Source: Halalkalicoccus sp. CGA53 (GTDB lineage: Archaea > Halobacteriota > Halobacteria > Halobacteriales > Halalkalicoccaceae). Taken from it: a stretch of DNA of 64,000 bases. Numbering within the stretch: position 1 is the first letter of the stretch; each line of letters begins with the position of its first letter. The notes below the pieces were generated by a model, which ran no database searches, was not told where the DNA came from, and saw only the letters and a list, made by a program, of their open reading frames with translations. The stretch lies in NCBI RefSeq assembly GCF_036429475.1, contig NZ_CP144124.1:1-64000 (forward strand). Reading direction: 5' to 3'. The position numbers and the translations under genes were made by a program. Below are positions 17,101 to 20,832 of this stretch, in pieces.

Positions 17101-18197
17101 CTAGCCCCGGTACAAATGAATTCGTATAGTCGAGAGCCGACCAGCCGACTCTCGGACGAAAATCGAACACCCTCGCCCGATTGAACGTCGCAGGTAGATC
17201 TGGGAAGTGTAGAGCAGACCGACGCAGCCGAGCCCAACCAGTGTACCGAGAGGCAAGACACCGAAGCTCGTCCGAATACCCGGCCGTGTCGACCAAATAG
17301 CCGATGAGAGTGGGAAACGCTGCGCTTCCGATGAGCGCCATCGTGTACATGTAGCCGAATGTCAGCCCTCGTAATTGTCGGCGGAGATGTCGCTGACGAG
17401 AGCATCTCGAAGGGGGTTCAGACCGAAGATACTGCTACCAACAACCGCGAACACGGCCAGCAGAGCGATCGGCGTCAGCGTGAGGACCGACAGAAGCAAT
17501 AGATCGACCGTCGACGGCCCGAGATACGCGACGAGGAAGGCACGATGATCGAACCGATCGGCGAGGACGCGCGAGACCAGTTGCGAGGCGGCAGCGCTGA
17601 CCAGTAAGACCGCGAAATAGAAGTTGGCGATCGACTCGGGTTCGATATCGACTCCAGCGACCGAAAGGGAATACCCGTAACGTCGTCGACGAACCCGGTG
17701 CGAACGCGACGAGTCCGTTGCCCGCGGAGAGGATCCCGAAGAACAACACCAGAAGTAAGTGGTCGGGAGGAAGAACTGGCGGGGGTCGGTCCGCCACGAC
17801 TTGTCGGGGCGCCCCATTCCGATACGACCGTTATCGGATGACGACGGCTCGGAATCGAACCCCGGTCGTCGCAGAACGAACAGTAACCACGCAGCGGACG
17901 CGAAACCGAACATCGCGACGCCGAAGAGCACTCGTTCCCAGAACACGACGAGTACGAAAACTGCGAAGAGAAGAGGGGCATCGGCATCCCCGATCTTCGA
18001 GGTGCTCCCCCACATCCCCAGAACCTTTTCCTTTTTCTCCGGATCGACGTTGGTCGATATGAACGGGTAGCCTACGGGTGGATACCGGTGTATCCGAGCC
18101 CGGCGACGGCCATCCCCAAGGCCATAATCTGGTACCCCCCGGTGAACGCGTGGTCGAAGAGCCACCCGGTGAAAGCGACGAACCAAGAATGATTCAT
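17101..18197 (-). pseudogene. MFS transporter, frameshifted
   Basis: Pieces of a 12-helix major facilitator can be read in order across three frames: MNHSWFVAFTGWLFDHAFTG and YQIMALGMAVAGLGYTGIHP, then VGYPFISTNVDPEKKEKVLG (loop 2-3 region with GMWGS), LLLVLFFGILSAGNGLVAFAP, SRVLADRFDHRAFLVAYLGP, FGLNPLRDALVSDISADNYEG, and finally MALIGSAAFPTLIGYLVDTAG and LPLGTLVGLGCVGLLYTSQIYL. Frame changes near 18070, 17770, 17650, 17370 and 17270 break it. It is the first gene of an operon with the downstream alcohol dehydrogenase. Sequencing error is possible but five shifts argue for decay. Confidence 0.75.
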
Positions 18198-18263: not shown

Positions 18264-18831
18264 TAGATTACATACACATATTTGTAATTTGGTTTTGTTC
18301 TCCGAGTGGATCTGGCCAACCGTGTCGGAGAGCTTGGAAGATGCTTATCAGAGGTTTTCTCTAGAGGTCAGTCAATTCCTCGCGCAGGTCACTGTCCGCA
18401 CTCAATTAGCTCCGACGACCCCGACGATTTTACTTGTTCGTACTACGATAAGCGAAAGTGGATCGTGATGTCGATTTTTGGCCGAAAATCGCACGACTGC
18501 GGTGACTTTGCCCGTCTATAAACTGTATACTACGATAACGAATCTTTTTCTCGATCTCTAAGAAACACCCTTCCCAGATACGTGAGCTCAGCTCTGATGG
18601 TGTATGATTTCCGCTCCTGCGACATTTGATCGGATCAATGGACCTCTGAGGTATGATATAGCAACATGAAAGGTCAGTAAGTTTTTGATGGAAATATTCC
18701 CCTTCTGCACCTAGGATCTACTCGTACAAACCGTCTTAGCCGAGAGAAATATCCGAATAAAATCGCGACCTCAATTCCCTTCCTCCAGTACGTAGAGATT
18801 GCCTGCTCGCTGGGTTCCCATAATCGCTCCA
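18264..18831. other. intergenic, no supported gene
   Basis: A plus-strand frame at 18306-18521 (71 codons) has no recognisable motif. It contains a strong hairpin CGATTTTTGGCCGAAAATCG near 18472-18491. The rest is low in coding signal and leads into the repeat array. Confidence 0.35.
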
Positions 18832-19312
18832 TCTGTAACATACATCTGTAATGGACATCTGTACCGGAAAGCGCCTAATTCAATATCTTCAGCCTTCAAC
18901 CATGACTGGATGAGGCCGAACTCGTGTCGTCGGTAGCGTGTATCTGTAACAGATATCTGTAACAGTAGATCCAGTCCTATGAGTCGGCGAAAGTGGTCTC
19001 AGTATTGTTCACTACATAGGAATGTCTGTACTCACAATCTGTAGCAGATTTCTGTATGAACAATCTGTAATAGATGGGTGCAATCGAGAATGAACGTCTC
19101 TGAACGGCCGTCGTTCTCGAATTCCATTGAGGATGCCTTTCAGTAATTATTGGGACAGACGACTGTTACTGACAACCGTTACAGACAATTGTCACAGATA
19201 TAACGAACAGATGTGGGCCCCCTCCACGGATGCTTCAACCACGGAATAGACCATTCCTAAATTCCTGTCTGTACCAGCCGTCTGTAACAGCCATCTGTAA
19301 CGTGTGTCTGAC
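18832..19312. repeat. iteron array: 17 TCTGTA-type units in five 13-bp-phased groups
   Basis: Units begin at 18832, 18845, 18858; 18943, 18956; 19025, 19038, 19051, 19064; in reverse orientation at 19154, 19167, 19180, 19193; and 19268, 19281, 19294, 19307. Inside every group the step is exactly 13 bp, and groups are about 70-90 bp apart. The commonest unit is TCTGTAACAG plus three variable bases; some units are degenerate (TCTGAC at 19307, reverse units TACTGA, CACAGA and GACAGA). The array ends 37 bases before parA. It looks like a centromere or iteron-type origin bound by a sequence-specific protein. Confidence 0.9.
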
Positions 19313-19348
19313 ACAGATTTATGCTACGGCCTGTGTAACATCGGGTCC

Positions 19349-20344
19349 ATGATCGCAGCTGTGGTCTACTCGGAGTCGGGTGGAACATACAAGACGACGA
19401 TGACGGCTAACATCGCAGTTGCTTTGGAGCGGATGGGCCAGAGCACCCTCGTCATCGATCTCGATCCGCAGGAAGGAAACTTGACGAGTCTTTTCGACGT
19501 CGGCGCACATCGAAGTGATCCCGGTGCAGACAATCTAGTCAAACACATTCTTGGTATGCCGGACGGTGACTTCGATAATCTGATCGAGACGACTGATGAG
19601 GGGGTTGACGTCATTCCGAGCCACGATATGCTCGGTGATTTCACCTCTAACCTGGAGCAGAAGATCTCGTACGAGACGGGAATGAAGAACATGAGTCGCG
19701 AGGACTATCCTCGATACGAACTCCTTTACGAGCTGCTCTGGAACGAACAGGAGCTGTACGACAAGTACGATGCGGTGTTGATCGACCCGAACGCTCGAGC
19801 AGAGGACCTTCTCTATAACGCGATCTTCGCCCTAAGGACGCTCGTCGCTCCAGTCAAGCCGGCCGGAAAGGGTAATCTCAGCCTCGAGGGCCTTGAAGAA
19901 CTCGTGAGAAACATGGAATCGCAACTCGACATCGAAATCGGCCTCTCGTGTGTCGTTCCCTGCGGAGTGGGCCAGACGAACGCTCACCGACAATACCGGG
20001 AGCAGTTCGAGGCTACCGACGCGTTCGACACCCCGGTGACGATTGGAAATCGCGAGAGTCTCATGGACGCGATGTGGGAAGCACGAGGCTCGGCGTTCAA
20101 AGTGGTGGAACAGCGATGGAAAACGTTCGAACGAGACGGCGAGATGGCAAGCGAACCTGGCCAACGGAGAATTCGGGACAGAGAAATCGAAACGTTGCGG
20201 GATCTATACAAACTCGCCTACTTCATCGCGACCGATACCTTCGATGTAGATGTCAATCCGGTGCTGGAACTCGATATTCAGGACTATGAAAGTCGTATTA
20301 TCGACCTTCGAGAGGATGAGACACCGGAGGTGACGACAGCATGA
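19349..20344 (+). CDS. parA: ParA/SegA-type partition ATPase
   Basis: A 331-residue deviant-Walker ATPase. The P-loop reads SGGTYKTT, followed by TANIAVALERMGQSTLVIDL and DPQEGNLT (switch I region with DxD), then VLIDPNARAEDL (switch II) and LVAPVKPAGKGNLSLEGLEE. The usual GGVGKTT is changed to GGTYKTT and the signature Lys before GG is absent, with Glu-Ser there instead. GTG 19304 is in frame, but ATG 19349 starts immediately before the conserved AAVVYSESGG strand and avoids reading through the repeats. The stop overlaps the next start by ATGA. Role: ATP-dependent segregation of the replicon, with the repeats as site and the next gene as adaptor. Confidence 0.85.
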   Translation: MIAAVVYSESGGTYKTTMTANIAVALERMGQSTLVIDLDPQEGNLTSLFDVGAHRSDPGADNLVKHILGMPDGDFDNLIETTDEGVDVIPSHDMLGDFTSNLEQKISYETGMKNMSREDYPRYELLYELLWNEQELYDKYDAVLIDPNARAEDLLYNAIFALRTLVAPVKPAGKGNLSLEGLEELVRNMESQLDIEIGLSCVVPCGVGQTNAHRQYREQFEATDAFDTPVTIGNRESLMDAMWEARGSAFKVVEQRWKTFERDGEMASEPGQRRIRDREIETLRDLYKLAYFIATDTFDVDVNPVLELDIQDYESRIIDLREDETPEVTTA

Positions 20345-20832
20345 GTAGCTTCAAATCTGGGTCCGGAAATCTTGACTTCGGAGGTAGCGACAGTGACGAA
20401 AAAGCAGACCAGTCTGCCGAGGACGTACCCAGCGATCAAGAAGAAGCCGATGTTGTCTCGACGTCAGAGGCCGACTCAGTGCCAGTCATCTCTGAGAGCA
20501 CAGAATCTGAGTCGGAAGACGGCGCCGATCAGCTATCGGCTTATCAGAACCCGGCAGAAGCGAAATCGGAACCACAGCCCTCGCCTGAAACCTACCCATA
20601 TTTCATTCGGAGAAGGAATGTTGGTGATGAGAGGGACACACGTCTCGAGATTCATGTGCGAGATGAGGTAGCCGATCAAGAGGGACAGTATCGCACCAGG
20701 CTAGCCGAAGAACTCGGAGCGAGTGAGGTCTCGAAAACGGATGCACGTGAATTCGCCCTTCTGGCAGCATTCAAACATCCTGACCGCGTTGCCAAGCTAA
20801 TGCGCGAAGAAGGATTTGGTGCCCTGGATTAG
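20341..20832 (+). CDS. small acidic partner of ParA, candidate centromere-binding protein
   Basis: A 163-residue protein translationally coupled to parA. The first ~90 residues are low-complexity and acidic (Ser/Glu/Asp-rich), likely disordered. The last ~70 form a folded domain: YPYFIRRRNVGDERDTRLEI, then HVRDEVADQE and a helical tail LAEELGASEVSKTDAREFAL. I do not recognise a family. Position and organisation (ATPase followed by a small gene with a disordered N-terminus and a C-terminal domain that could bind DNA) match ParB/SegB-like adaptors. Binding to the 13-bp repeats is inferred. Confidence 0.6.
   Translation: MSSFKSGSGNLDFGGSDSDEKADQSAEDVPSDQEEADVVSTSEADSVPVISESTESESEDGADQLSAYQNPAEAKSEPQPSPETYPYFIRRRNVGDERDTRLEIHVRDEVADQEGQYRTRLAEELGASEVSKTDAREFALLAAFKHPDRVAKLMREEGFGALD

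Follow-up and report, generated by a model that had tools for sequence, protein, structure and literature searches.

The stretch analysed here, called the window, comprises the opening 64 kb of a 279,642-bp contig (G000:C1) in a 4.04-Mb haloarchaeal genome. It carries an array of short phased repeats directly followed by genes for a ParA-type ATPase and a small partner protein. Comparison with related loci makes it very likely that these are the three components of a ParA-type partition locus of this 280-kb replicon, with the partner-bound array as its centromere. The best reading of the relatives is an undescribed, haloarchaea-wide family of ParA-type partition systems with a 13-bp-phased centromere.

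Architecture of the locus

The array consists of 17 TCTGTA-type units in five groups spanning 18832-19304, immediately 5' of the parA promoter (Table 1). The step inside every group is exactly 13 bp, and the orientation of group IV is inverted. Each complete unit forms a short dyad, TCTGTwACAGA, and 2 bp separate one dyad from the next; the best dyad lies in group II, where the unit at 18943 is the perfect dyad TCTGTAACAGA and a weak unit is found one step upstream at 18930. Across 18587-19348, 37 5-mer matches occur at distance 13 compared with 4 at the best distance that is not a multiple of 13, and the maximum over all distances in 1,000 dinucleotide-preserving shuffles of this region was 11. 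The spaced pair TCTGTA-N7-TCTGTA has eight copies in the array and one elsewhere in the 4.04 Mb (reversed control, 0), and the array is unique within the genome. Coordinates, shuffles and genome count thus confirm the seventeen units, five groups, exact 13-bp step and single reversed group that the earlier note had described. Structurally, a candidate repeat centromere adjoining the par genes is present. Upstream of the array, 17362-18186 holds an MFS transporter remnant whose match to the MFS_1 profile is partial, and ORFs near it suggest frameshifts.

Table 1 Features of the array-parA-partner locus (positions in the window).
Feature	Position	Strand	Basis
Array group I, 3 forward TCTGTA units (18832, 18845, 18858)	18832..18868	+	13-bp step
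Array group II, 2 forward units (18943, 18956)	18943..18966	+	
Array group III, 4 forward units (19025, 19038, 19051, 19064)	19025..19074	+	13-bp step
Array group IV, 5 inverted units, more degenerate, one exact TCTGTA	19149..19211	-	13-bp step
Array group V, 3 forward units (19268, 19281, 19294); abuts promoter	19268..19304	+	13-bp step
Conserved core promoter GTCTGACACAGATTTATG, GTCTGAC-N5-TTTATG	19306..19323	+	Common to most related loci
parA, Walker ATPase, 331 aa, P-loop SESGGTYKTT	19349..20344	+	Profile matches, relatives
Partner, predicted centromere-binding adaptor, 163 aa	20341..20832	+	Alignment, AF2

Most related loci have this core promoter element ahead of parA, regardless of which repeat word they carry. 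Its conserved, promoter-proximal GTCTGAC (19306-19312) adjoins the last array unit, and TCTGAC is assigned to the promoter because it is also present in clades with other repeat words. The TATA-like TTTATG lies ~28 nt upstream of the ATG at 19349, a position consistent with a leaderless parA-partner transcript. This ATG, rather than the GTG at 19304, is very probably the parA start, because the homology of relatives begins there and the TATA-like box is appropriately placed.

A ParA without the signature lysine

The gene following the array encodes a ParA/MinD-type Walker ATPase, as the earlier note had proposed, with matches to AAA_31 (6e-18), PHROG ParA (1.6e-30) and, in the PDB, Thermus thermophilus Soj (4.7e-7). 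Most partition ParAs possess the signature lysine of the deviant Walker A motif (KGGxxK[ST]). This lysine is absent from all 82 ParA sequences compared, which have S or A in its place, and the protein is therefore not a canonical ParA. The P-loop is SGGT[YF]KTT in 53 of the 82 and mostly AGGVGKTT in the remainder; by clade, close relatives have SESGGT[YF]KTT and distant ones mostly SEAGGVGKTT. Among P-loops tabulated elsewhere (PMC9178275), that of McdA (SGGQGKT) has likewise lost the signature lysine, and that of SopA (KGGVYKT) has Y replacing the last glycine. The family's ParA most likely works like a canonical ParA despite the missing lysine.

A partner outside known families

The parA stop overlaps the partner start (ATGA, 20341-20344); this coupling and the 163-residue length of the partner had both been given correctly. 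The partner had been said to belong to no recognised family, and indeed no match was found in Pfam, NCBIfam, PHROGs or PDB sequences, nor any to the ParB family (ParB N-terminal and HTH domains) in the profile libraries searched. AF2 modelling agrees with the proposed disordered N-terminus and helical C-terminus, and places two strands ahead of the C-terminal helices. In the model, the N-terminal half is disordered and residues 85-156 form a beta-beta-alpha-alpha-alpha arrangement (strands 87-92 and 100-105; helices 108-125, 132-145 and 147-156); the helical part, in beta-alpha-alpha order, has a pLDDT of about 84-92 from an MSA only 5 deep. Invariant columns comprise K5, G7, G9, L11 and F13 at the N-terminus and positions in the C-terminal domain. 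The resulting tail motif, K-x-G-x-G-x-L-x-F, is invariant among 40 close relatives, and the acidic linker varies freely.

The tail motif, the disordered linker and the modelled beta-alpha-alpha C-terminus suggest that the partner is a centromere-binding adaptor. By analogy, its tail resembles those of adaptors in which a basic tail residue stimulates the ParA ATPase, as the arginine fingers in the ParB and ParG tails do (PMC9178275). The strand-helix-helix order of the model also fits a ribbon-helix-helix (RHH) fold; Pfam RHH gave no match to the partner, hhalign of the partner profile against seven haloarchaeal RHH_1 proteins of the same genome was negative, and Foldseek with both AF2 partner models, built from shallow alignments, returned no match. 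Many partner relatives carry the RefSeq name 'acyl-CoA dehydrogenase' (for example, on NZ_CP119560.1, NZ_MN918442.1 and NZ_AP017559.1). Nothing in the analysis backs this label, which indicates that it is wrong, apparently a spurious transferred name.

On one viral contig, a gene directly upstream of the par locus (L135:3157-3933) fuses the partner C-terminal domain to an N-terminal region that looks by eye like a PD-(D/E)xK nuclease and has no Pfam match. Judged from this fusion, the partner C-terminal domain may be a portable DNA reader.

The phased array accompanies ParA and partner across haloarchaea

Partner relatives are present in 213 of the 394 sampled genomes of the class. A single-protein scan of genome contigs yielded one partial relative; it was the whole-genome search that succeeded. 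With the distant-clade profile, 26 of 247 in a phylum-wide sample matched, all within the window's own order. IMG/VR scans with the close partner and close ParA profiles gave no match, and three viral contigs matched the distant ParA profile. Comparisons below refer to a set of 100 related loci from close and distant clades, in nearly all of which the ParA and partner genes overlap by 4 bp or 1 bp.

Summed over the first locus set, the 5-mer autocorrelation upstream of parA peaks at 13, 26, 39, 52 and 65 bp alone (heights 1132, 794, 563, 432 and 257; mean 99). Individual loci were scored over the 700 bp upstream of parA, where a 13-bp period was called dominant if 13 beat every non-multiple of 13. 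The refuting condition set by the earlier note, a lack of repeats beside parA in other genomes, was checked and did not hold, the co-occurrence being strong. Among close loci whose ParA is full-length (70-86% identity), 13 bp dominates in 52 of 54; among distant paralogous loci, whose ParA is 32-54% identical, it does so in 19 of 29. The remaining 10 distant loci have no dominant 13-bp period, and several of them still bear the word of their clade. None of five loci with truncated ParA shows 13-bp dominance, their ParA start, and hence the upstream region, being less certain. The signal is confined largely to the upstream side, with 13-bp dominance in 0/59 close and 0/30 distant loci inside parA and in 4/57 and 2/30, respectively, downstream. 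The array is thus coupled to full-length ParA plus partner.

Two kinds of exception were seen. In a close relative, L045, TCTGTA units recur at a 22-bp period (also 44 and 66) and not mainly at 13. Four loci appear decayed (L058, L072, L091 and L093); L058 has a partner without recognisable ParA, and the others have truncated ParA with the phased array absent.

The extent of the array bears on whether it is an operator only, through which the partner or ParA would repress its own promoter, with no centromere function. Such a role would suit an array that abuts the conserved core promoter, and it has a parallel in SegB, for which autoregulation has been suggested and which has its sites within the promoter region of segAB (PMC12284271). 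However, 17 units spread over ~470 bp as spaced groups of either orientation go far beyond what an operator needs, and the extent is alike in relatives, in which 13-bp pairs lie mostly within the first 300 bp upstream and continue to ~700 bp. A purely regulatory array is very improbable on these grounds.

Contigs of secondary-replicon size account for most family copies, and viral contigs for some. Halobacterium salinarum NRC-1 carries the locus and array on pNRC200 (VNG_RS11335/VNG_RS11340), adjoining the gas-vesicle cluster. This neighbourhood could point to an ATPase that positions non-plasmid cargo in the manner of ParA/McdA proteins, with the repeats serving another role, and the missing signature lysine is shared with the type 1 beta-McdA carboxysome-positioning ATPases (PMC8262871, PMC9178275). 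Against this, neighbouring genes vary between loci while the array is the constant third component, and the copies sit mainly on contigs of the kinds just described; cargo positioning is extremely improbable as an explanation.

The replicon of the window carries a second par locus of the same family, from a distant clade (L034; G000:C1:126602-128037), with TTAGGT-type units that, read by eye, stand at 13-bp steps. Its presence points to a cointegrate or to a pair of partition systems that are compatible. At G000:C1:195595-195732 lies what is left of a third partner gene, interrupted by three in-frame stops.

Repeat words change with the partner while the step stays constant

TCTGTA arrays are absent from the distant clades, which keep the 13-bp step with other words: CTATAG (dyad AACTATAGTT), TCTTAGA, TTGAAC and TTTGTTACAAA. 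The units are short dyads, and the word changes with the partner clade. In the distant clades, the similarity of array words correlates with partner identity (r = 0.85; 0/2000 permutations). When ParA is controlled for in a balanced set of 29 loci, word and partner show a partial correlation of 0.57; when the partner is controlled for, the value for word and ParA is 0.18. Traced through the partner sequence, the correlation has its main peak at residues 93-103, a stretch that takes in the predicted strand 100-105, and a secondary one at residues 128-134, where the next helix begins. Word similarity therefore appears to go with the partner and not with ParA, the link being strongest at the predicted beta-strand; joint descent of the linked locus can contribute to this relationship, and the partial correlation reduces that contribution without removing it. 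Bases are read by the strand in ribbon-helix-helix proteins, and the backbone is held where the following helix begins, so the two peaks form a suggestive pattern. The TCTTAGA word expected with a SITDGR-type partner was looked for afterwards in three viral contigs that encode such a partner; units at 13-bp steps are plain in L134 and L136, neither of which had served to define the word, and partial in L135.

That the words follow the partner, and not a replication gene, speaks against the array being the iteron set of a replication origin, with an initiator bound to the 13-bp repeats and the parA-partner pair adjacent by chance. Phased repeats beside parA are typical of plasmid origins generally, and some relatives do have orc1/cdc6 nearby, such as Haloprofundus pMHR1-2. 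In the window's contig, however, the two full orc1/cdc6 genes lie at 239.7 and 247.8 kb, with none close to the array, and such genes occur in the examined flanks of only 16 of the 100 related loci. Essentially every relative that has a full-length ParA has the array directly 5' of parA. A G-string is a feature of haloarchaeal ORBs, and G-string ORBs are absent at the array by published criteria (PMC3528665). Because there is neither a nearby orc1/cdc6 gene nor a G-string ORB, the iteron origin was rejected as very unlikely. Of the two possibilities raised in the earlier note, an origin with iterons is accordingly disfavoured, and an undescribed haloarchaeal partition system gains support from the co-occurrence of array and parA and from a partner outside known families.

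Comparison with known segregation systems

Type Ib systems, such as ParF-ParG-parH of TP228 and delta-omega of pSM19035, pair a short ParA without an N-terminal HTH with a small downstream adaptor gene, whose product has a flexible N-terminal tail, and place a centromere of short repeats upstream of parA. The window locus has the same layout, a flexible tail and a predicted beta-alpha-alpha DNA-reading core. It differs in having an adaptor without detectable sequence homology, a 13-bp step, a long acidic linker and a ParA without the signature lysine.

Among archaeal systems, SegAB of the Sulfolobales (PMC12284271, PMC5120986) likewise consists of two genes, one for a ParA-type protein and, downstream, one for a small partner that binds DNA, and short, palindromic sites lie just upstream of segA. 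SegB sites are scattered on the chromosome with the consensus TCTAGA-S-TCTAGA, whereas the window has a phased array of TCTGTwACAGA, and SegAB is chromosomal, whereas the window's family is mostly on secondary replicons. No TCTAGA-S-TCTAGA sites were found at the window array, and the words of the other clades differ from this consensus too. SegB structures exist (PMC9178275); profiles of both partner clades found no significant chain in the PDB, a search that gave no indication of a SegB-type partner. AspA-ParBA of Sulfolobus pNOB8 (PMC5120986) also couples the ParA of an archaeal plasmid to a dedicated DNA-binding adaptor, but it has three proteins and shows spreading at a 23-bp palindrome, compared with two proteins and a phased multi-unit array here.

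Type 1 beta-McdAB (PMC8262871) shares an ATPase without the signature lysine and a partly disordered partner. It has no DNA array, its cargo is the carboxysome, and its SGGQGKT P-loop contrasts with SGGT[YF]KTT or AGGVGKTT in the window's family. The haloviruses phiCh1 and ChaoS9 carry a haloarchaeal ParA-like gene on a plasmid-like replicon, and the excerpted account of them (PMC6471424) describes no repeat centromere. The phiCh1 ParA is about 30% identical over 56%, and no annotated phage record contains a partner relative. None of these closest systems matches the window locus in partner sequence or centromere layout. Open-access PMC full text held no description of the parA-partner pair or the array; paywalled accounts could exist.

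Proposed mechanism and implications

We propose that a dimer of the partner binds each 10-11-bp dyad unit (TCTGTwACAGA) and that neighbouring dimers sit 13 bp apart, their spacing apparently set by dimer-dimer contacts. At 10.5 bp per turn, 13 bp corresponds to ~446 degrees of twist, so each dimer would be rotated ~86 degrees from the previous one, and touching dimers would form a superhelical filament or cluster, the partition complex. Such fixed protein-protein spacing would account for a step that persists as the words diverge. The complex probably also represses the parA promoter abutting the array, a form of autoregulation. The flexible K-x-G-x-G-x-L-x-F tail would reach ParA-ATP and trigger hydrolysis, and the resulting cycle would move plasmids or space them over the nucleoid, thereby stabilising the replicon.

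A broader possibility, which we put forward tentatively, is a haloarchaea-wide class in which the 13-bp ruler is invariant and the words diversify to give many compatible centromeres for the megaplasmids of a single cell, with a ParA that works without the signature lysine and so through a nucleotide switch unlike that of known partition ParAs, and with an adaptor of a new fold family that binds the centromere. Diverging words would allow several such plasmids to coexist, and an unchanging step combined with variable words hints at how their compatibility is maintained.

Multi-replicon segregation in halophiles and the centromeres of archaeal plasmids are listed as open questions in a review of archaeal genome segregation (PMC5120986), and the window locus is a concrete candidate answer that can be tested. 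Partner relatives occur in over half of the sampled haloarchaeal genomes, including the model laboratory plasmid pNRC200, so the system can be tested in H. salinarum NRC-1. The array-parA-partner locus could also supply stability modules for haloarchaeal vectors.
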